Positions 126 to 20,026 of a stretch of 25,338 nucleotides of DNA are shown piece after piece (the first letter of the stretch is position 1; the number at the start of each line of letters is the position of its first letter). Below the pieces are notes generated by a model. The model saw nothing but the letters and a program-made list of their open reading frames with translations, ran no database searches and was not told the DNA's origin. Source of the stretch: a virus; the IMG/VR virus record IMGVR_UViG_3300030061_004364, positions 25,604 to 50,941 of that record. One strand, 5' to 3'. The position numbers and the translations under genes were made by a program.

Positions 126-137
126 ATATTACACTTT
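126..137 (-). promoter_or_regulatory. Putative phage late promoter motif
   Basis: Read on the minus strand this is AAAGTGTAATAT. It ends about 10 bases before the ATG at 115 and overlaps the stop codon of the phosphoesterase gene. It matches the motif found before the portal, protease, PhoH and other genes. Promoter function is inferred from recurrence and position. Confidence 0.5.
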
Positions 138-1985: not shown

Positions 1986-2013
1986 ATTATAAAGGGAAAA
2001 TGGCTCAAGTCAA
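1986..2013 (-). promoter_or_regulatory. Sigma70-like promoter for the glycosyltransferase gene
   Basis: On the minus strand, TTGACT (2013-2008) and a perfect TATAAT (1991-1986) are separated by 16 bases. The expected transcript start falls near 1979, only a few bases before the ATG at 1973, so the leader would be very short. The -35 element overlaps the phage-type motif facing the other way for PhoH, making this a compact divergent control region. Confidence 0.6.
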
Positions 2014-2761: not shown

Positions 2762-3169
2762 ATGGCTAGTATATTTTGTCCTCAATGTGGAGCTAAAAAC
2801 AATTACAGCTTGAAGAAGCCCAACTTCTGTCAAAGCTGTGGTGAAACTTTTTCAGCTTTTGGTTTAACAAGCGATTCAAGCGCTGCACAAGGTAGCTATT
2901 CTACTGCTAACACGGCAATCCGAACAAATTCGGATGGTATTCCGGCGCTTTCAAAATTAGAGTACGACTTAGAGCTTCCAGAAAGCTCTAGTCAAACTTT
3001 TGAATCTCTAGTAAATAATCCTTTAAATCCTAATGAATTAAGGGATCGAAAGACCAATAAAGGTACACGATCAAAAATGTCTAAAGAAGACTACCTAAAA
3101 GAATCTCAAGCCAAATGTCGCAGTTCAAGGGGGAAATATAAAGACATTGGTGGTAGTGCGGAAGAATAA
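2762..3169 (+). CDS. Zinc-ribbon protein
   Basis: A 135-residue protein with an N-terminal zinc ribbon: C6-P-Q-C9-G and C23-Q-S-C26-G, the two CPxCG-like knuckles that bind one zinc ion. The remainder is low in hydrophobics and looks disordered, with a basic stretch around 95-125 (RDRKTNKGTRSKMSKEDY). Ribbons of this type occur in RNA polymerase-associated and nucleic-acid-binding proteins. It lies between PhoH and a sigma-like factor and overlaps the latter's start by about 20 bases. A role as a late-transcription accessory factor is attractive but purely inferred from position. The ATG at 2762 is the only good start. Confidence 0.7.
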   Translation: MASIFCPQCGAKNNYSLKKPNFCQSCGETFSAFGLTSDSSAAQGSYSTANTAIRTNSDGIPALSKLEYDLELPESSSQTFESLVNNPLNPNELRDRKTNKGTRSKMSKEDYLKESQAKCRSSRGKYKDIGGSAEE

Positions 3170-3872
3170 AAAACATAGCTACGAAGATAAATACGAGATA
3201 ATAGATAACGAGATAAGAAAAAGATATTATAAGTGGCATTTGCATGCATTAGCATGGCTAGATTTCGACGACGTATCTCAAATTATCCGTACTCATATTT
3301 ATAAGAAATGGGACCAATGGGACCAGCTTCGACCTATTGAGCCTTGGGTAAATAAAATTATATCCAATCAGCTCAAAAATATCTTACGTAATAATTATTC
3401 TAATTTTGCGCGGCCTTGCATAAGCTGTAAGCATAATCAGTCCAAAGAGCAAGCTATAGGTCAAGTAGCTAATTTATGCTCTTTGACTAAAAGTGGTTTG
3501 CAGTCAGGAGAATGCGCCGACTATGCAAAGTGGGAAAAAACACGAAAGCAAGCATACGATATTAAAATTCCTGTCTCTTTAGAGACAAATCCTTTTGATA
3601 GATATACCATCCCACAAGATCATTATAATATAGACGGGGCTGTTGGTTCGATGCATTTACGGATGAGAGTATATCTAAATGATCGCCATTACGTCATTTA
3701 CAAAATGCTTTTCATTGATCATATAGATGAAGAAACAGTGGCAAAAGTCTTAGGCTATAAAAGTAACGAGAAGGGCCGTAAAGCTGGCTACAAACAAATT
3801 AAAAATTTAAAAAATCTATATAAGAAAGTGGCAAGAAAAATTTGCGATGAAACCGATATATTTTTTGAATGA
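3147..3872 (+). CDS. Divergent sigma factor-like protein with Cys4 insert
   Basis: A 241-residue protein laid out like a minimal sigma factor. Residues about 33-83 (DFDDVSQIIRTHIYKKW, EPWVNKIISNQLKNILRNNY) resemble region 2. Residues about 170-232 (LNDRHYVIYKMLFIDHIDEETVAKVLGY then a basic helix KQIKNLKNLYKK) resemble a region 4 helix-turn-helix. Between them sit C91-x2-C94, C111 and C123, a probable zinc-binding insert not usual in sigma factors. It probably directs RNA polymerase to late promoters, as gp55 does in T4. No ATG is available: the frame opens after 3098 and starts are TTG 3147, GTG 3150 or GTG 3156, with a GGGGGA about 12 bases upstream. The start overlaps the zinc-ribbon gene, and the end overlaps the next gene as ATGA. 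Confidence 0.6.
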   Translation: MVVVRKNKKHSYEDKYEIIDNEIRKRYYKWHLHALAWLDFDDVSQIIRTHIYKKWDQWDQLRPIEPWVNKIISNQLKNILRNNYSNFARPCISCKHNQSKEQAIGQVANLCSLTKSGLQSGECADYAKWEKTRKQAYDIKIPVSLETNPFDRYTIPQDHYNIDGAVGSMHLRMRVYLNDRHYVIYKMLFIDHIDEETVAKVLGYKSNEKGRKAGYKQIKNLKNLYKKVARKICDETDIFFE

Positions 3873-4939
3873 AAGACTACGTACTAACTAAGGAAGAAAA
3901 AGAGCGCAGCCTTCAATTATTTGAAGAGCTTGATGGTGATCTAAGTGGTGCTACCAAAAAATTATTTAACGATGATAACGAAAAAGGTAGTACGGTGCGC
4001 GGGCGTGCCCTAAGAAAATATTGGGTGGAGAAAGGGCTTAGTTATCGGACCAAAGTAAAAAAAAGAGTTGTCAAACATTTCCTCACTGATGACGAAAAAT
4101 CTTTTGTCAAGCAGCATTACTGCGCCGAAATGACCAAGAAAGAAATTGGTCAATTATTATGGCCTAAAGAAGCGGAGCATAAAGGTTTTGCAGAAAGCGA
4201 TAAGTTTATTGCGTTGTGTGAATATATAAGCGCAGAGTTTCCTTCAGCAGTTAATTTACGAGATGATGCAGCTGGAGAAAAATATACCCCTCCTCAAATT
4301 GTATCTACGGCTGTTAAAAAATTAAATAAAGTGGCATCTACAGAATTGGACGTAGGAAAGTTAAATTTACAGGATCGCAAGTGCATTGAAAAGATGATTA
4401 CGTATATAAATGGACCTCGTTTTTTGCAGGTAATTAATTCTTATCTCACGAAACAAAGTCGAGAACTTTTTGAAGCGGAATATATAAGGAGCACATGGGA
4501 TAAGCCAGATTTAACATCTGATGAATTAAATTTATACGTTAACGTCTGCATGGATTATGTAAATCTTAAAGAAATAGAATTGCAAAAACAAAAATTAAAT
4601 TTAATGTTTGACGATACAGAAGGGCAAAATGATTTGACGATGCGCTTAACTGAAATGCTCAAAACTAAAGCTGAAGAATATAATCAATGCATTAATCGTA
4701 TAGACAAGATGCTTGCCAAGCTAAATGGAGAGAGGGCAAAAAGAGTTGCTAACCAACAGCAACGAAACGCATCTATCATTTCTTTAGTGCAGCTTTTTCA
4801 AGACGAAGAAGAAAGAAAGCTCATGATTATGATGGCCGATATGCAAAAGAAAACCGTTAGAAAAGAAGCAGACTCTTTGGAAAAAATGTCAGATTGGAAA
4901 GCCCGAGTATTAGGCATTAGTAAAGAGGACGCAATCTAA
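3869..4939 (+). CDS. Putative terminase small subunit (HTH and coiled-coil protein)
   Basis: A 356-residue mostly helical protein. Two helix-turn-helix-like segments are seen near the N-terminus: about 13-57, and 71-99 (LTDDEKSFVKQHY...MTKKEIGQLLWP). The region from about 225 to 345 is rich in Leu, Glu and Lys and is likely coiled coil (IELQKQKLNLMF, INRIDKMLAKLNGERAKR). A DNA-binding N-terminus plus a helical oligomerisation region, two genes before TerL, is what a small terminase subunit looks like, but I do not recognise a specific family. It would select phage DNA for packaging. The ATG overlaps the preceding stop (ATGA), and its own stop overlaps the next ATG (TAATG), so the operon is translationally coupled. 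Confidence 0.5.
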   Translation: MKDYVLTKEEKERSLQLFEELDGDLSGATKKLFNDDNEKGSTVRGRALRKYWVEKGLSYRTKVKKRVVKHFLTDDEKSFVKQHYCAEMTKKEIGQLLWPKEAEHKGFAESDKFIALCEYISAEFPSAVNLRDDAAGEKYTPPQIVSTAVKKLNKVASTELDVGKLNLQDRKCIEKMITYINGPRFLQVINSYLTKQSRELFEAEYIRSTWDKPDLTSDELNLYVNVCMDYVNLKEIELQKQKLNLMFDDTEGQNDLTMRLTEMLKTKAEEYNQCINRIDKMLAKLNGERAKRVANQQQRNASIISLVQLFQDEEERKLMIMMADMQKKTVRKEADSLEKMSDWKARVLGISKEDAI

Positions 4940-5880
4940 TGGAAAGAGTTGTAGCTAAAATTTTTCCGTGCGCGGAGTGTAAAAAAGAATTTTCGAGTAG
5001 GGCATCATTACATAAACACCTAAAGCAGCATGGTTTAAATTTAGCCTCTTATTATACTAAATATTTTCCTCGAATAAATAAACTGACAGGAGATCCCTTG
5101 CCTTTTAAAAGATTTGAAGAATACTTCGAAAGAGATTTTTCTACAAAGCAGCAACTTTTAAAATGGTGCCAAAATACTCCTAAGGAGGAAGTAAAAGAAT
5201 ATGCCCTTTCGCTTCTTGAAAAAAGACATCTAAAAAAACAGAGGCAATATGGGCCTTTTCATTTGGAAACTAAAAATTCTTTTATGCCTCCTATCGCTCT
5301 TTATCGCGAACTTTTTGGAAGTTATAATGCCGCTTGCGAAGCCATAGGGTGCGAACCACTCTATCATAAAAATTTACCTAAAGATTTTTTTAGTAGAGAG
5401 ATGCCTCGGGATCTCACAATTGCGATAGATACTCGAGAACAAAAACCTTTAAAATTTGAAAGCTGTGAAAATGAGATTTTAAAATTAGATATTGGAGATT
5501 ATACCGCGCTCGGAGACTATTATGATTATACTTTTATAGACCGGAAGTCTGGCAATGATTTACAAGGGACGGTAGGCAAGCACAATATCGATAGGTTCAA
5601 AAGGGAAATAGAAAGAGCAACCGAAGTAGGAGCATATCTATTTGTAGTAATAGAATCTAGTGTGGAAAAAATAATTAAAGAGAATAAAATTTTTAATAGA
5701 AAAGCTAATATAGATTATACTTTAAGACAAATTAAAGATATATCCCATACTTACCCCCGATCGTGTCAATTTATTTTTGCAGAAAATCGGGAAGGGGCAG
5801 CTCGACTAATTCCTCGGATTTTAATGGCAGGTAAAAAAATTTGGAATACTGATATGCAATATTTTTTAGATAAAGAATGA
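4939..5880 (+). CDS. C2H2 zinc-finger / ERCC4-type nuclease
   Basis: A 313-residue modular nuclease. A textbook C2H2 finger is at the N-terminus: C11-x2-C14-x12-H27-x3-H31. The middle segment MPPIALYRELFGSYNAACEAIGC (about 116-138) resembles the homing-endonuclease-associated (HNH) repeat, a small DNA-binding unit. The C-terminal half is an ERCC4/XPF nuclease domain: D164-T-R-E167, LDIGDY around 183-188, and DRKSGNDL at 201-208, the counterpart of the ERKxxxD motif with Asp in the first position. It likely cuts branched or specific DNA during replication, recombination or packaging. An AGAGGA Shine-Dalgarno lies about 10 bases before the ATG. It lies between the putative small and the large terminase genes and overlaps both neighbours. 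Confidence 0.8.
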   Translation: MERVVAKIFPCAECKKEFSSRASLHKHLKQHGLNLASYYTKYFPRINKLTGDPLPFKRFEEYFERDFSTKQQLLKWCQNTPKEEVKEYALSLLEKRHLKKQRQYGPFHLETKNSFMPPIALYRELFGSYNAACEAIGCEPLYHKNLPKDFFSREMPRDLTIAIDTREQKPLKFESCENEILKLDIGDYTALGDYYDYTFIDRKSGNDLQGTVGKHNIDRFKREIERATEVGAYLFVVIESSVEKIIKENKIFNRKANIDYTLRQIKDISHTYPRSCQFIFAENREGAARLIPRILMAGKKIWNTDMQYFLDKE

Positions 5881-7742
5881 GTTGGACAGAAGGACATCAA
5901 CAGAGGCGTTGCCCTAAACTGAGGGATAACGAAGAGTTATTAAAGATAGAAGGTTTTCTAGACGAGAGGGAAGCTAAACTAGCTTTGTATGAATTTTTAA
6001 GAAATAATACCACCTTTGCTGCTGATTTAATTCTGGGAGTGAAGCTATTTCCTTTTCAACATATGGCTATCAAATCCATGTTTGAGACAGATTATTTTTT
6101 AGGGGTATGGAGCCGTGGAATGTCCAAGTCTTTTACTACGGGTATTTTTGCTGCATTAGATGCAATTTTAAACCAAGGGGTAGAGATAGGAATTCTTTCT
6201 AAATCTTTTCGACAAGCTAAAATGATTTTTAAAAAGATTGAGGATATTGCTAATAAACCTGAAGCCGGTTTTTTTCGACAATGTATTACTAAAACTTCTA
6301 AAAGTAATGATGAGTGGCTAATGGAAATTGGATCTAGTAGGATTCGTGCTTTACCTTTAGGTGATGGCGAAAAGCTTCGTGGCTTCCGCTTTCATAGGAT
6401 TATTATTGATGAATTTTTATTAATGCCCGAAAGAATTTATAATGAGGTGATAGTTCCATTCCTGTCTGTAGTAGAAAATCCCACTCAAAGAGATGACCTC
6501 TATAAATTAGAAAATCAACTTATCAAAGAAGGTCAAATGACCAATGCGGATAGATATGTATGGCCTAATAATAAGCTCATAGCTTTATCGTCAGCTTCAT
6601 ATAAGTTTGAATATCTTTATAAGCTTTATACTCAATTTGAGCATTTAATAACTCAAGAAAATCAAAAAGATAAAGCTTCCCGTTGCGTTATGCAGTATAG
6701 TTATGATTGCGCTCCTAAACAACTTTATGATGAAAATTTGATTAATCAAGCAAGAGCAACTATGAGTCAATCTCAGTTCGAACGAGAATTTGGAGCTATT
6801 TTTACGGATGATAGTTCAGGTTACTTTAAAACTAGCAAAATGGCTTTATGCACGGTACCAGACGGAGAGTTACCCTGCGTTGAAGCTCAAGGAGATCCGG
6901 ACGCCGAATACATTTTAGCCTTTGACCCCTCATGGTCTCAAACTGAAAGTTCAGATGATTTTGCTATTCAAATTTTAAAGCTTCACCCAGAGGAGCAAAA
7001 AACTACATTAGTTCATGGCTATGCTTTATCGGGAACCTCTTTAAAACATCATATTAATTATTTTCTATTTTGTTTGGAAAATTTCAACGTAGTGGCTATA
7101 TGTGGTGATTACAATGGAGGAGTTCAATTTTTACAAGCCTGTAATGAAAGCGAACTCTTTAAAAGTAAAAAAGTTAAGTTAAAAACTATAGATGTTAATT
7201 TAGACAAGCCAGAAGAATATCAAAGTGATTTGCGTACATATAATTCTCAATATAATAAAGGAGAGTATCGTTATGTTATTTTGCGCAAGCCTACGAGCAA
7301 TTGGATTAGGCAGGCTAACGAGTTATTACAAGCAAATTTTGATCATCGGCGAATTCACTTTGCGAGTCGCGCAATAGATGATTCTTACACAAAACAAACA
7401 AATAAAAATATTTCAATTTTAGATATTAAGTTTTTACGCAGTTCTGAAGAGACTAAACAAACAGCAGGAGCTAAAATGATTGATTTCATTGAGCATCAAT
7501 CAGATATGATGGACCTAACTAAGAATGAATGTGCTTTAGTTCAAATCACTACCACTTCTCAAGGGACTCAAACTTTTGATTTGCCTTCTAATCTACGTCG
7601 GCAAACTGGCCCTGACAAAGCCCGAAAGGATTCTTATTCTGCATTAGTTTTGGCCAATTGGATGGCTAAAATTCATCTTGACTCTAAATCTCAACCCGCA
7701 GAAGATGTAATAGAGACTTTTGAGCCTACTTTTATTTTATAG
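5877..7742 (+). CDS. terL: Terminase large subunit
   Basis: A 621-residue DNA-packaging motor protein. The ATPase half has a Walker A variant, SRGMSKS at 79-85, Walker B RIIIDEF at 174-180, and the coupling-type segment LIALSSASYK near 234-243. The nuclease half has FDPS with D350, GDYNGG with D411, and a C-terminal RKDSYSALVLANW block with D585, the usual acidic residues of the RNase H-like terminase nuclease. It docks on the portal and translocates DNA into the prohead. The ATG overlaps the stop of the nuclease gene by four bases (ATGA). The gene ends the packaging operon; a weak hairpin follows at 7775-7800. Confidence 0.92.
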   Translation: MSWTEGHQQRRCPKLRDNEELLKIEGFLDEREAKLALYEFLRNNTTFAADLILGVKLFPFQHMAIKSMFETDYFLGVWSRGMSKSFTTGIFAALDAILNQGVEIGILSKSFRQAKMIFKKIEDIANKPEAGFFRQCITKTSKSNDEWLMEIGSSRIRALPLGDGEKLRGFRFHRIIIDEFLLMPERIYNEVIVPFLSVVENPTQRDDLYKLENQLIKEGQMTNADRYVWPNNKLIALSSASYKFEYLYKLYTQFEHLITQENQKDKASRCVMQYSYDCAPKQLYDENLINQARATMSQSQFEREFGAIFTDDSSGYFKTSKMALCTVPDGELPCVEAQGDPDAEYILAFDPSWSQTESSDDFAIQILKLHPEEQKTTLVHGYALSGTSLKHHINYFLFCLENFNVVAICGDYNGGVQFLQACNESELFKSKKVKLKTIDVNLDKPEEYQSDLRTYNSQYNKGEYRYVILRKPTSNWIRQANELLQANFDHRRIHFASRAIDDSYTKQTNKNISILDIKFLRSSEETKQTAGAKMIDFIEHQSDMMDLTKNECALVQITTTSQGTQTFDLPSNLRRQTGPDKARKDSYSALVLANWMAKIHLDSKSQPAEDVIETFEPTFIL

Positions 7743-7774
7743 AAACTTTTAAAAATAAGCTTATTATGTGAGGT

Positions 7775-7800
7775 CAAAGTAACTTTCAAAAGTCACTTTG
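7775..7800 (+). terminator. Hairpin after terL, possible weak terminator
   Basis: CAAAGTAACTT (7775-7785) pairs with AAGTCACTTTG (7790-7800) around a TCAA loop, with one G-U type mismatch in the 11-base stem. It is AT-rich and followed by TTAACTTTAA rather than a clean T-run, so termination would be inefficient. It sits between terL and the portal promoter motif. Confidence 0.35.
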
Positions 7801-7808
7801 TTAACTTT

Positions 7809-7817
7809 AAGTGTAAT
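7809..7817 (+). promoter_or_regulatory. Putative phage late promoter motif before the portal gene
   Basis: AAGTGTAAT ends 10 bases before the ATG at 7828. An in-frame TTG at 7798 lies upstream of this motif and is therefore an unlikely start. No Shine-Dalgarno sequence is seen. Confidence 0.55.
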
Positions 7818-7827
7818 CTATTTTAAC

Positions 7828-9855
7828 ATGGCGGGAAAAAGAAGATATACAAAGCGTTCGGACTATTGGCAAAAGTTCAAAGAAAAAGAGCAGCCTCTTG
7901 AAAATTTGATAGTATCTAATGCTAAAGCTGATTATGAGCCTCAATTAGTCGGAGAGTCATTTTATAATCATGAGTCTAAAGCTTATGCCCGTAGTGGATC
8001 TGGTGGAAGTAGCACCACCGCAAGGCGTAATAATATTGCAATAGCCCCTCAGTTATTCAAATATGCCAATATCCGCATGGGTATGTTGCCCTTTGAGTAT
8101 GGAGCAGATGGGGTTAATGTACGAGACGCGATTGAATTATGTCAAAAAGCTTACTGTAATATTTCTGTTTTCAGGAACGCTATAGATATGATGTCAGATT
8201 TTGCTAATTCTACTTTATATTTGGAAGGAGGCAGTGCAAAGTCACGCGCATTTATTTCTTCATGGCTCAAGAAGATAAAAATCTGGAGTTTAAAAGACCA
8301 ATTTTTTAGAGAGTTTTACCGTAGCGGCAACGTCTTCCTTTATACAATTAATAGTAAAATTAATGTAGATGATTTTTCTAAAGTTCGTAATCTTGGTTTA
8401 AATTTAGCTACTAACAAAATCCCTATCAAATATATTCTTTTAAATCCTTTTGATGTTATGGCTCGTAGAGCCACAGCATTTGACAGAGGTTTGTATGTTA
8501 AAGTATTAAGTGAATACGAAGCAGAAAGATTAAGAGACCCCAAGACAGATGAAGATAAAGAGTTATTTGACGCTTTAGATCCAGATATTAAAAAAAGAAT
8601 TGAGGTTGGCTCATGGACTCCCAATGGCTTAAAAGTTTCATTAGATCCTAAAAGGCTAAAAATGGCTTTTAATAAAAAACAAGACTATGAGCCTTTTGCG
8701 GTTCCTTTTGGCTTTCCTGTTTTAGATGACATCAACTTCAAAATGGAGATGAAGAAAATTGATCAGTCCATTTGTAGAACAATTGAAAATGTTGTGCTAT
8801 TAATCACGATGGGCACTACGCCTGATAAAGGGGGAGTTAATCCTCGTAATATTCGGGCTATGCAGAATTTATTTTCTAATCAAAGTGTGGGTCGTATACT
8901 GGTAAGCGATTATACTACTAAAGCTGAGTTTATTATACCTGATTTAAATAAGGTTATAGGGCCGGCGAAATATGATGTAGTGAACCAAGACATTAAAGAA
9001 GGTTTGCAAAATATAATCTTAAATCAAGAAAAATTTGCTAGCACCGAAGTTAAAGCTCAGATGTTTTTACAGCGTTTAAAAGAATCTCGGGATGCTTTTA
9101 TAAACGAATTTCTTCAACCTGAAATAAAACAAATTTGTAAAGATTTTGGATTAAGAGATGAGCCGCTCGCCAAATTTGAAACTATCGATCTTCAAGATCA
9201 AACGCAAGTTCAACGTACTATTACTAGGATGATGGAATTAGGTATTCTTACTCCGACGGAGGGAATAAAAGTCATTGAAACTGGAGTTTTCCCAAGCGGT
9301 AAAGAATTGGAAGAAGCTCAAGAAAAATTTGTTGAGCAGCGACAAAAAGGATTTTATAACCCTATTGTAGGCGGAACGCCAGTTCCTTTGGATTTAGACG
9401 AAGAAATAGAATTGGAAGAAATTAAACATCCTCGTAGCATGCAACTGTTAGAGAAACCTACCAATAAAGGACCGCGAAGCGCGGCCAATCCCGGTAGGCC
9501 CGTGGGTTCTAAATCTTTGGCGAATAGTACTTATTCCGTAACTTCCATCAAAGAAATAGCCGAAAAAACTAATAATCTTTTTACTACTCTTGCAAATGAA
9601 GCAAAGAAAGCTTTCAAGAAAAAACGGTTGAGTAAAATGCAAAAAGAGATGCTCGAGAGGGTATGTGAATCCGTAGTGGTTGCTAAAAACTCAACAGAGT
9701 GGATGAAAGCTGGAAAAGAATGTTTAGCCAATCCGGACAAAATTATGGAATTGAAGCCTATGCAAGAAGTGCTCAATATCAGCGCAGAGCATGAGTTAGA
9801 TGATTACGCTGCAGCAATTTTGTATCATAGCAGAAAAAATTCTCTCAATAAATAA
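7828..9855 (+). CDS. Portal protein
   Basis: A 675-residue portal subunit. The segment around 110-170 (VFRNAIDMMSDFANSTLYLEGG, then SSWLKKIKIWSLKDQFFREFYRSGNVFLY) is a typical portal block, and the middle has the usual wing/stem order with KIDQSICRTIENVVLLITMG and a crown rich in helices. Portals form the dodecameric ring at one capsid vertex through which TerL pumps DNA. I chose the ATG at 7828 (MAGKRRYTKR) because the motif AAGTGTAAT lies just before it. The last 130 residues are unusual in being basic and Ala/Lys-rich with a GRP-type AT-hook-like motif (NPGRPVGSK) and may be a crown extension that contacts DNA. The gene lies between terL and the prohead protease, the standard order. Confidence 0.9.
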   Translation: MAGKRRYTKRSDYWQKFKEKEQPLENLIVSNAKADYEPQLVGESFYNHESKAYARSGSGGSSTTARRNNIAIAPQLFKYANIRMGMLPFEYGADGVNVRDAIELCQKAYCNISVFRNAIDMMSDFANSTLYLEGGSAKSRAFISSWLKKIKIWSLKDQFFREFYRSGNVFLYTINSKINVDDFSKVRNLGLNLATNKIPIKYILLNPFDVMARRATAFDRGLYVKVLSEYEAERLRDPKTDEDKELFDALDPDIKKRIEVGSWTPNGLKVSLDPKRLKMAFNKKQDYEPFAVPFGFPVLDDINFKMEMKKIDQSICRTIENVVLLITMGTTPDKGGVNPRNIRAMQNLFSNQSVGRILVSDYTTKAEFIIPDLNKVIGPAKYDVVNQDIKEGLQNIILNQEKFASTEVKAQMFLQRLKESRDAFINEFLQPEIKQICKDFGLRDEPLAKFETIDLQDQTQVQRTITRMMELGILTPTEGIKVIETGVFPSGKELEEAQEKFVEQRQKGFYNPIVGGTPVPLDLDEEIELEEIKHPRSMQLLEKPTNKGPRSAANPGRPVGSKSLANSTYSVTSIKEIAEKTNNLFTTLANEAKKAFKKKRLSKMQKEMLERVCESVVVAKNSTEWMKAGKECLANPDKIMELKPMQEVLNISAEHELDDYAAAILYHSRKNSLNK

Positions 9856-9857
9856 TT

Positions 9858-9866
9858 AAGTGTAAT
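9858..9866 (+). promoter_or_regulatory. Putative phage late promoter motif before the protease gene
   Basis: AAGTGTAAT starts three bases after the portal stop codon and ends 12 bases before the ATG at 9879. An ATG at 9871 is followed at once by TAA, so it is not a start. No Shine-Dalgarno sequence is present. Confidence 0.55.
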
Positions 9867-9878
9867 ATTCATGTAAAC

Positions 9879-11471
9879 ATGGATAATCAATTCAAATATA
9901 AAACAGAGTATACCTTTGATATCTATGCCACTTCGGATTTAGAGAGCGATCTAGATATAAGTCGAGCTTCATTAGATAACCTTAAACCTCTTATCCCCAA
10001 ATCTATTGATTTGGATCGAAATGTAGATTTAATTGGAGCTGCCTTTAATGCCGCGGTGGTAAATAAATTCAATAGGAATGGGGACGGAATTGATTCTGAA
10101 ACTGCCGTGGACGTTATTGATTATTTTATTAATAAGCCCACAAATATAGAGCATAAAAAGCATAAGGTAGTTGGTCATATCGTCAACGCGGGCTTTACTG
10201 ATTTAGATAATGAAAAAATTATTGGTAATGGCGCAGCGCTTAAAGAAAAAGATCCTTATTTTATATCTTTGGCTGCTGTAGTTTACAAAACTGTTAATAA
10301 AGATTTTGCTGATGTTTTACTTCAGTCAAGTGAACAAGGAAATCCTTTTCATAATAAGATTTCAGCAAGTTGGGAGTTAGGATTCAATGAATATGTTTTA
10401 GCTTTAGGATCTCAAGACTTGAAAGAAGCTGAAATTATCACTAATCCTACTCAGATCAATGAAATGAAAAAATACCTGAAATCTTTCGAAGGGTCAGGTA
10501 AACTAAATGATGGCACACCAATTTACCGATTAGTTAAAGGGGAAGTTTTCCCTTTAGGCATTGGGTTTACTACTAATCCAGCCGCTAACGTAAGCGGCCT
10601 TATAGTAGAAAAAAATATTGATTTGGAGCTTAATGATAAGAGAGACGACGTAGAAGCTTCAGAAAATTTTAAAAATAATATTTTAAAAATTTCCCAAAAG
10701 GAAAATAATACTGTAAAAAATACTAATACTATGGATATAACAGAGTTCAAAACTGAGTTCGAGAAGGTTCTCGATTCGAAGTTAGCGGACAATGCGGAAT
10801 TCACTCAAGAAGCTGTAGCCAGTGTCGCTTCCCATGTAATCGATAAGATTCGTGAGAAAGATGCTGAGTTTCGTGCTGAAAGAGAGGCTGTTGAAACTGA
10901 AAAAGTTCAAGCCAAGAAAGACGCAGAGGAAGCAAAAGCTTCGATTGAAGACCTCCAGAAAAAGTTAGAGGAAGCCACTGAGAAGATTACTTCCTTAGAG
11001 TCCTCTATCTACGCTGCTGCGGCAGAAGAGTTATTTAATAGCAGAATGGGAGCTATCGACGAGCTTTACGACCTTTCCGACCAAGACCGTGTGGTTTTGG
11101 CGAACGAAGTGAAGACTCTTGAGAGCGCCGATCCTGCCTTTGAAGATTACCAGTCTAAATTGGCATCCTTACTTCAACATAAGAGCAAAGCTTTTAAGTT
11201 GGAGCAAGAAAAACAATTTGAGGCAAAAGTTCAGGAAGAACTGGAGAAACGTTTAGCTAGTACTACTTCGGAAGAAGCAACAGCTAGTAGCGCTCCTGCA
11301 GTCGAGCCTGAGGTAGCTGAAGTTCAAGCAACTGTCGAAGAAGTTGTTGAAAATGTTGAAGTCCCGCACTCTAGCATGGCCAACAATAATGAGGCTTCTT
11401 CCACGGAAGAATCTTTAACTGACAGGTTCAAAAAGGCCTTTAGCACAGAAAGTATTTCTATAACCTACTAA
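9879..11471 (+). CDS. Prohead protease fused to scaffold region
   Basis: A 530-residue protein with two parts. Residues about 1-235 look like a phage prohead serine protease: NKPTNIEHKKHKVVGHIVNAGF with a candidate catalytic His (H92), and KISASWELGFNEY with candidate Ser (S162). This is the His/Ser order of T4 gp21/S78-like enzymes. Residues from about 285 to the end form a long charged coiled-coil scaffold (REKDAEFRAEREAVETEKVQ... EDLQKKLEEATEKITSLE), then an Ala/Glu/Val-rich linker and a basic tip RFKKAF. Codon use changes near residue 285, from AT-ending codons to GAG/AAG/TTC like the capsid gene, suggesting a separately translated scaffold. Catalytic assignments are by pattern only. Confidence 0.75.
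   Translation: MDNQFKYKTEYTFDIYATSDLESDLDISRASLDNLKPLIPKSIDLDRNVDLIGAAFNAAVVNKFNRNGDGIDSETAVDVIDYFINKPTNIEHKKHKVVGHIVNAGFTDLDNEKIIGNGAALKEKDPYFISLAAVVYKTVNKDFADVLLQSSEQGNPFHNKISASWELGFNEYVLALGSQDLKEAEIITNPTQINEMKKYLKSFEGSGKLNDGTPIYRLVKGEVFPLGIGFTTNPAANVSGLIVEKNIDLELNDKRDDVEASENFKNNILKISQKENNTVKNTNTMDITEFKTEFEKVLDSKLADNAEFTQEAVASVASHVIDKIREKDAEFRAEREAVETEKVQAKKDAEEAKASIEDLQKKLEEATEKITSLESSIYAAAAEELFNSRMGAIDELYDLSDQDRVVLANEVKTLESADPAFEDYQSKLASLLQHKSKAFKLEQEKQFEAKVQEELEKRLASTTSEEATASSAPAVEPEVAEVQATVEEVVENVEVPHSSMANNNEASSTEESLTDRFKKAFSTESISITY
10731..11471 (+). CDS. Possible nested scaffold protein (internal in-frame start)
   Basis: An in-frame ATG at 10731 (residue 285 of the protease ORF; product starting MDITEFKTEF) would give a 246-residue protein consisting only of the scaffold coiled coil. 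Support comes from the sharp change to highly expressed-type codons exactly there, and from TGTAAA at 10712-10717, a weak match to the phage motif 13 bases upstream. The known precedent is lambda C/Nu3, where scaffold is made from an internal start in the protease gene. No convincing Shine-Dalgarno is adjacent; an AAAAGGAAAA lies about 30 bases upstream. Confidence 0.45.
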   Translation: MDITEFKTEFEKVLDSKLADNAEFTQEAVASVASHVIDKIREKDAEFRAEREAVETEKVQAKKDAEEAKASIEDLQKKLEEATEKITSLESSIYAAAAEELFNSRMGAIDELYDLSDQDRVVLANEVKTLESADPAFEDYQSKLASLLQHKSKAFKLEQEKQFEAKVQEELEKRLASTTSEEATASSAPAVEPEVAEVQATVEEVVENVEVPHSSMANNNEASSTEESLTDRFKKAFSTESISITY

Positions 11472-13841: not shown

Positions 13842-13850
13842 AGTGTAAAT
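13842..13850 (+). promoter_or_regulatory. Putative phage late promoter motif (AGTGTAAAT variant)
   Basis: AGTGTAAAT, followed by ATAT, ends seven bases before the ATG at 13858. It begins six bases after the previous stop codon. No Shine-Dalgarno sequence is present. Confidence 0.5.
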
Positions 13851-18183: not shown

Positions 18184-18196
18184 ATATTATACACTT
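18184..18196 (-). promoter_or_regulatory. Putative late promoter motif for the minus-strand tail block
   Basis: On the minus strand AAGTGTATAATAT, with TATAAT ending six bases before the ATG at 18179. It is the longer form of the phage motif, also seen before the tape measure gene. It faces away from a related element at 18218-18237. Confidence 0.55.
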
Positions 18197-20015: not shown

Positions 20016-20026
20016 AAGTGTATAAT
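20016..20026 (+). promoter_or_regulatory. Putative late promoter motif before the tape measure gene
   Basis: AAGTGTATAAT, preceded by an A-run, ends 13 bases before the ATG at 20040. It is the same long form as at 18184-18196. No Shine-Dalgarno sequence follows. Confidence 0.55.

Follow-up and report, generated by a model that had tools for sequence, protein, structure and literature searches.

The locus analysed here raises the question of whether a small phage protein with a cysteine cluster in its middle can be a sigma factor, and which promoters such a factor would read. The window, a stretch of 25,338 nucleotides, belongs to a 50.9-kb viral record (IMG/VR record IMGVR_UViG_3300030061_004364, positions 25,604 to 50,941). 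At 3147–3872 of its plus strand lies an open ORF of 241 aa that contains the cysteines C91, C94, C111 and C123, as reported in a preliminary description. Its start codon is ambiguous (TTG 3147, GTG 3150 or GTG 3156) and the frame remains open further upstream, an ambiguity that leaves the claim of a four-cysteine sigma factor untouched. The product, for brevity called the zinc-site sigma, is very probably a small sigma protein whose middle part carries a metal-binding insert, as inferred from sequence alone. Region 2 is encoded by ~3174–3398 (residues ~10–84) and region 4 by ~3630–3857 (residues ~162–237), with the insert at 3417–3515 and its ligand codons at 3417–3419 (C91), 3426–3428 (C94), 3477–3479 (C111) and 3513–3515 (C123), all on the plus strand. 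In the absence of biochemistry, the likely role of the protein is that of late sigma factor in a large group of uncultivated phages with genomes of ~200 kb.

Sequence and predicted fold show the zinc-site sigma to be a two-domain, ECF-like (group 4) member of the sigma-70 family; binding to core RNA polymerase and initiation are inferred. The window protein alone matches the Pfam profile Sigma70_r2 at E=0.0018, under Pfam's cut-off. This region 2 profile is matched by 41/41 homologues (best 5e-6) and the region 4 profile Sigma70_r4_2 by 7/41 (best 1e-4). Of 42 diverse homologues, a set that took in the most divergent ones, 41 match the sigma70-ECF profile TIGR02937 (best E 3e-10); in one member the profile covers both domains with 36.2 bits, just under the curated 42.9. 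The AlphaFold2 model, built with 41 homologues, has a pLDDT of 79.6 and a pTM of 0.46, so that the packing of the domains is uncertain; region 2 helices are followed by a two-strand hairpin at the cysteine insert and then by region 4 helices. The solved structures ranked highest by Foldseek are sigma factors, mostly inside polymerase complexes. Superposed as separate domains with VIA-align, region 2 fits 8b3z with 72 residues at 2.3 Å over residues 10–84, and region 4 fits sigma-4 structures at 1.9–3.9 Å over residues ~160–237. D42, V43 and Q45 are invariant in region 2.2 of the zinc-site sigmas, and W67 aligns with the conserved ECF tryptophan (CnrH). In sigma-L Trp68 stacks on the flipped −11 base (PMC6372665), and W67 is likely its equivalent, a correspondence that is inferred. 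The region 2-like and region 4-like helices of the preliminary description are upheld by profiles, AlphaFold2 and structural alignment; a predicted structure without sigma folds, which would have refuted it, was not the outcome.

The four cysteines are invariant in 57/57 unique homologues of the first round, which differ in the length of the loop from C94 to C111. In a wider set of 267 complete homologues, all from uncultivated phages, 230 possess the C-x2-C...C...C (CCCC) ligand set. The other 37 are devoid of C94 and C111 and carry C91-x7-H-x4-C-x2-C (CHCC) instead, with the 7-4-2 spacing identical in 37/37; no homologue among the 267 is without a four-ligand set. A different pair of ligands thus takes the place of the original two and the total of four is retained, which points to metal binding, and alternatives are hard to find. 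This ligand swap argues strongly that the insert binds a metal, an inference made without bound-metal data; zinc is the probable metal, inferred from the ligand types. The "probable zinc site" of the preliminary description therefore holds as a conserved four-ligand site, with the ligands kept or replaced by other ligands in 267/267 homologues and with zinc remaining an inference. The structure of the insert is less clear. Modelled alone by AlphaFold2 it reaches a pLDDT of 65.9, inadequate for a fold search, and within the full-protein model its confidence is only modest. A comparison of the insert with PDB sequences gave no significant match, the best being RNA polymerase subunit E'' (E=1.8). 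A match to 8vd6 was taken as chance, as this is a repeat protein matched in several very weak stretches. Sequence data do not decide whether the insert lies inside the polymerase channel or beside region 2.

The gene order phoH, zinc ribbon, sigma, gene 4, ERCC4 nuclease, terL, portal, protease, g221 and MCP is found in ~110 loci, and the synteny of the sigma–terL operon is shown to hold down to 37% sigma identity, with extra genes between phoH and the zinc-ribbon gene in some clades. The zinc-site sigma gene is present at every terL locus that has over 3.5 kb of upstream DNA. In the window the genes from phoH to portal lie on the plus strand. The first encodes a PhoH-like ATPase (2026–2751; PF02562, E=6e-48) and the second a small zinc-ribbon protein (2762–3169), directly 5' of the sigma gene and syntenic in relatives, which could conceivably be a partner of the sigma, though this is inferred. 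The packaging operon and zinc-ribbon neighbour of the preliminary description are thereby confirmed. Downstream, the conserved gene 4 (3869–4939; 356 aa), placed by synteny, is inferred to be possibly the small terminase. It is followed by a gene for a C2H2 finger and ERCC4-type nuclease (4939–5880; domain match, phrog_3490 at E=2e-13), by the terminase large subunit gene, terL (5877–7742; profile matches), and by the portal gene (7828–9855), which is identified by a weak match to phrog_2739, by synteny and by a match to the portal of phage Slash. In nearly all relatives the packaging operon includes the ERCC4-type nuclease with its N-terminal C2H2 finger. Between terL and the portal promoter lie conserved ACTTT/AAAGT repeats (7745–7810, plus strand), palindromic as ACTTTTAAAAGTT / AAAGTTAACTTT and found in the same place in all clades; an operator, a packaging site and an origin are each possible functions.

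The largest contigs of the relatives measure 184–205 kb. Their terL shows distant similarity (~23–28%) to the terL of MaeS, Slash-type and SPbeta-like phages. Among the 50,697 phage records of INPHARED the MCP has no match, and the zinc-site sigma none beyond one that is marginal. A search of large viral relatives for an Rpb2 homologue or multisubunit RNA polymerase gene, for which the control was good, found none; the polymerase partner of the zinc-site sigma is inferred to be that of the host.

The promoter word is AAGTGTAAT, which occurs in four exact copies in the window (0.38 expected). The sequences of relatives show it to be one form of a wider motif, GTGTA(A/T). In an unsupervised count of the 5-mers 8–24 nt before ATGs, GTGTA far exceeds all others in enrichment (255 seen, 11.9 expected), and GTGTA(A/T) stands 12–22 nt before the ATG in 206/995 ORFs of related loci, compared with 8.5 in shuffles. 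The genes so marked in related loci include those for the portal, protease, phoH and tape-measure. A Shine-Dalgarno sequence and GTGTA occur together in only five genes (p=2e-14), and the median upstream gap is 38 nt for GTGTA genes versus 1 nt for others. The homologues are not independent and orthologues inflate the counts, so the p-values for the motif are too small. In one 203-kb genome there are 129 GTGTA[ATC] sites in all, 32 of them at gene starts, where ~1–3 would fall by chance (authors' estimate). GTGTA is present in every clade, even where the sigmas are down to 37% identical and in the CHCC clade, and is absent around the terL of MaeS and Stills, which have a related terL and another sigma. 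The main promoter word of non-GTGTA genes in the same genomes is of the CTTGAC type (sigma70). The GTGTA sites are followed directly 3' by A+T-rich bases and in related loci have no −35 consensus around them; why region 4 is strongly conserved despite this is unexplained. The GTGTA promoter class itself is shown by sequence. TATAAT near the ATG was considered as a third promoter class and rejected, being largely accounted for by the sigma70-type promoters of zinc-ribbon genes together with scattered cases.

Five GTGTA promoters are located on the plus strand of the window. The copy of AAGTGTAAT at 2012–2020 precedes the phoH–zinc ribbon–sigma operon, with the G of GTGTA 12 nt from the ATG; the others precede the portal gene (7809–7817; ATG 7828), a putative prohead protease gene (9858–9866; ATG 9879), a 191 aa ORF (13843–13849; ATG 13858) and an ORF of more than 1766 aa, a probable tape measure, that runs off the window (20018–20024; ATG 20040). 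On the minus strand one belongs to a 150 aa ORF (18188–18194; ATG ~18179) and another, recognised by the motif, to a gene outside the window (128–136). A sigma70-type promoter, TTGACT-N16-TATAAT (1986–2013, minus strand), of the divergent glycosyltransferase gene overlaps the phoH GTGTA promoter. An extra conserved AGTCAAG at phoH is the −35 (CTTGACT) of this promoter, so that the motif of the preliminary description, real in itself, is corrected to GTGTA(A/T) and the extra phoH bases are assigned to the divergent promoter. The two promoters overlap head to head within 1986–2020, an arrangement under which early transcription in one direction and late transcription in the other would exclude each other.

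The zinc-site sigma is the best candidate for the reader of GTGTA, an inference made without transcription or start-site data. The argument is that the protein is ECF-like and that GTGTAAT suits the −10 sequence favoured by sigma-L, itself an ECF factor. That sequence reads T-12 G-11 N-10 (C/A)-9 A-8, with G preferred at position −13, and is also given as T-G-N-(C/A)-A-G (PMC6372665); GTGTAAT fits it, and TGTAA puts G at −11. A GTGTA promoter precedes the zinc-site sigma operon in 129/158 loci, by which the operon would amplify itself. A sigma70-type promoter scoring at least 10 stands before the zinc-ribbon gene in 41/161 loci (3.2 in shuffles) and before terL in 1/159; the window itself has no clear promoter of this type before its zinc-ribbon gene. 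The role of natural reader of AAGTGTAAT given to the protein in the preliminary description is thus well supported as a hypothesis and unproven, and it is tempered by a second sigma-like protein, a real rival, in every large relative.

In the proposed mechanism, the zinc-site sigma would bind host core RNA polymerase via region 2.2 with its invariant D42, V43 and Q45, and region 2.3/2.4 would recognise the −10 element G-T-G-T-A-(A/T) without a −35 element. Head, tail, packaging and other late genes would thereby be switched on from promoters so near the ATG that the mRNAs are predicted to have almost no leader. The GTGTA promoter of the sigma's own operon would provide positive feedback, a loop that in many relatives could be set going by the zinc-ribbon gene's sigma70-type promoter. 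Placed behind region 2, the four-ligand insert would hold a structural zinc ion and stiffen the segment between regions 2 and 4, a role that is likewise inferred. The linkers of ECF factors run through the active-centre cleft and the RNA exit channel, and archaeal and eukaryotic factors place zinc ribbons and reader loops in the same polymerase channel (PMC6372665). A bolder and rather doubtful reading is that the insert lies in this active-centre/RNA-exit path and replaces the sigma finger, as an independent TFIIB-like solution; if true, such an insert would permit initiation at near-leaderless promoters with only a −10 element.

The rival that survives best, and remains possible, is that the second sigma-like protein reads GTGTA and that the zinc-site protein, made late, acts otherwise or only amplifies. 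The second protein has ~200 aa and no cysteine insert, and is found in 6/6 contigs of more than 100 kb and in 11/29 contigs searched. Its gene (L193–L196, L360–L366) lies in a DNA-metabolism cluster together with SSB and with dUTPase or kinase-like genes. The rival is favoured by the universal presence of this protein in large relatives and by the position of the zinc-site sigma operon itself behind GTGTA in the 129 loci mentioned above. Furthermore, in one relative (G003) the first gene of the cluster has a sigma70-type promoter, by which the protein would be made before the late genes, in parallel to T4 gp55, whose gene is expressed before the late phase. Against the rival, the second sigma of G003 is only 26–33% identical to the others, whereas its zinc-site sigma is 44–68% identical and GTGTA is unchanged; this faster divergence mildly favours the zinc-site sigma and is not decisive. 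GTGTA is moreover of the ECF −10 type, the ECF-like protein being the zinc-site sigma, and many relatives provide the zinc-ribbon/sigma pair with a sigma70-type promoter of its own.

Less probable is that the insert is not a structural site and instead acts as a metal or redox sensor that switches the sigma on and off as in CorE/CorE2 (ECF238), a reading that is compatible with a late-sigma role. In its favour, CorE-type factors also have cysteines in the linker between regions 2 and 4, where a CXC and a C-terminal Cys-rich sensor domain are both required for activity (PMC8999054). However, the CorE linker has only the CXC, while the zinc-site sigmas have a complete four-ligand linker site of the form CxxC...C...C, and they are without the C-terminal Cys-rich domain, the homologues ending shortly after region 4 with no cysteine cluster. 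In addition, the CCCC to CHCC swap with fixed spacing and four ligands retained is typical of structural zinc, and metal sensing is of no obvious use to a lytic late sigma. In OrbS, too, the cysteine cluster is C-terminal (PMC9023288). That GTGTA is a translation signal or another signal before the start codon is very improbable. Its fixed short distance to the ATG and its standing in for the Shine-Dalgarno sequence would suit such a signal, but the genes it marks follow a gap or a divergent gene and are not operon-internal, another class of genes in these genomes carries TTGAC promoters in its place, and the spacing suits a −10 element with a start site at or just before the ATG. Least probable of all is that GTGTA is read by an alternative sigma of the host, with the phage protein only modulating it: the host is unknown and ECF factors are common in bacteria, but GTGTA is constant across phage clades from MAGs of different phyla and both sigma domains are present in the phage protein.

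Among known systems, the ECF sigmas (M. tuberculosis sigma-L and sigma-H) share the layout of regions 2 and 4 and give the best structure and family matches, and the sigma-L −10 (T-12 G-11 N A/C A) agrees with TGTAA (PMC6372665). The zinc-site sigma differs from them in its four-ligand linker insert, its phage origin, the missing −35 consensus and the lack of any anti-sigma gene seen beside it. The preliminary description knew of no standard sigma with a zinc finger between regions 2 and 4, a claim that is qualified by the linker CXC of CorE-type factors. A linker metal site is therefore not wholly unprecedented, yet a complete four-ligand set within a phage sigma's linker appears to be new; no other example was found in the literature and libraries searched, of which coverage was incomplete.

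T4 gp55, with which comparison had been suggested, resembles the proposed role in that it serves a large lytic phage whose late promoters have no element but the −10, with A+T-rich DNA behind it (PMC2988020), and the −10-only feature is met at GTGTA, whose reader is inferred. Unlike the zinc-site sigma, gp55 is without region 4 and metal insert and reads an 8-bp TATA box. Homology was rejected, as gp55 matches phrog_234 at 3e-69 and 0/42 zinc-site sigmas do so at E<=0.01. The C-terminus of the zinc-site sigmas has a conserved D-I-(F/I)-(F/L/Y) that loosely recalls the clamp-binding tail of gp55/gp33, from which no clamp role is claimed; a search of six large contigs yielded no bacterial-type beta clamp, and the gp45 search lacked a good control. 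The phage sigmas of phrog_1740 (Slash/Stills, MaeS) are encoded 5' of terL and are weakly matched by 28/42 zinc-site sigmas. Two examples, MaeS and Stills, have a terL related to that of the zinc-site group and no cysteine insert; their sigma genes 5' of terL are at L082:5143–5814 and L083:4988–5698. The placing of a sigma gene near terL may possibly be older than the metal insert. Archaeal and eukaryotic factors, which have no homology to the zinc-site sigma, offer no more than an analogy, in that they place a zinc element next to a segment that may reach into the polymerase.

With this protein, a phage group without a near cultivated relative, judged by its sigma and capsid genes against the collection searched, gains a concrete late-transcription system, consisting of a small sigma that carries its own metal site and of a simple promoter word used across the genome. 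It is an open point (PMC6372665) why one and the same RNA polymerase channel is occupied across kingdoms by unrelated modules, the TFIIB zinc ribbon among them, and a metal-bound linker between regions 2 and 4 would bear on it. The GTGTA word allows late operons to be called in metagenomic contigs of the group. RNA genes were also seen: the 203-kb relative encodes a tmRNA (L200:6699–7062) with the tag GNKNRVKAFGLKAKKLALAA, and the window's own record (L187) carries a tRNA-Cys (9768–9841) and a manA-family RNA (11199–11379, minus strand).
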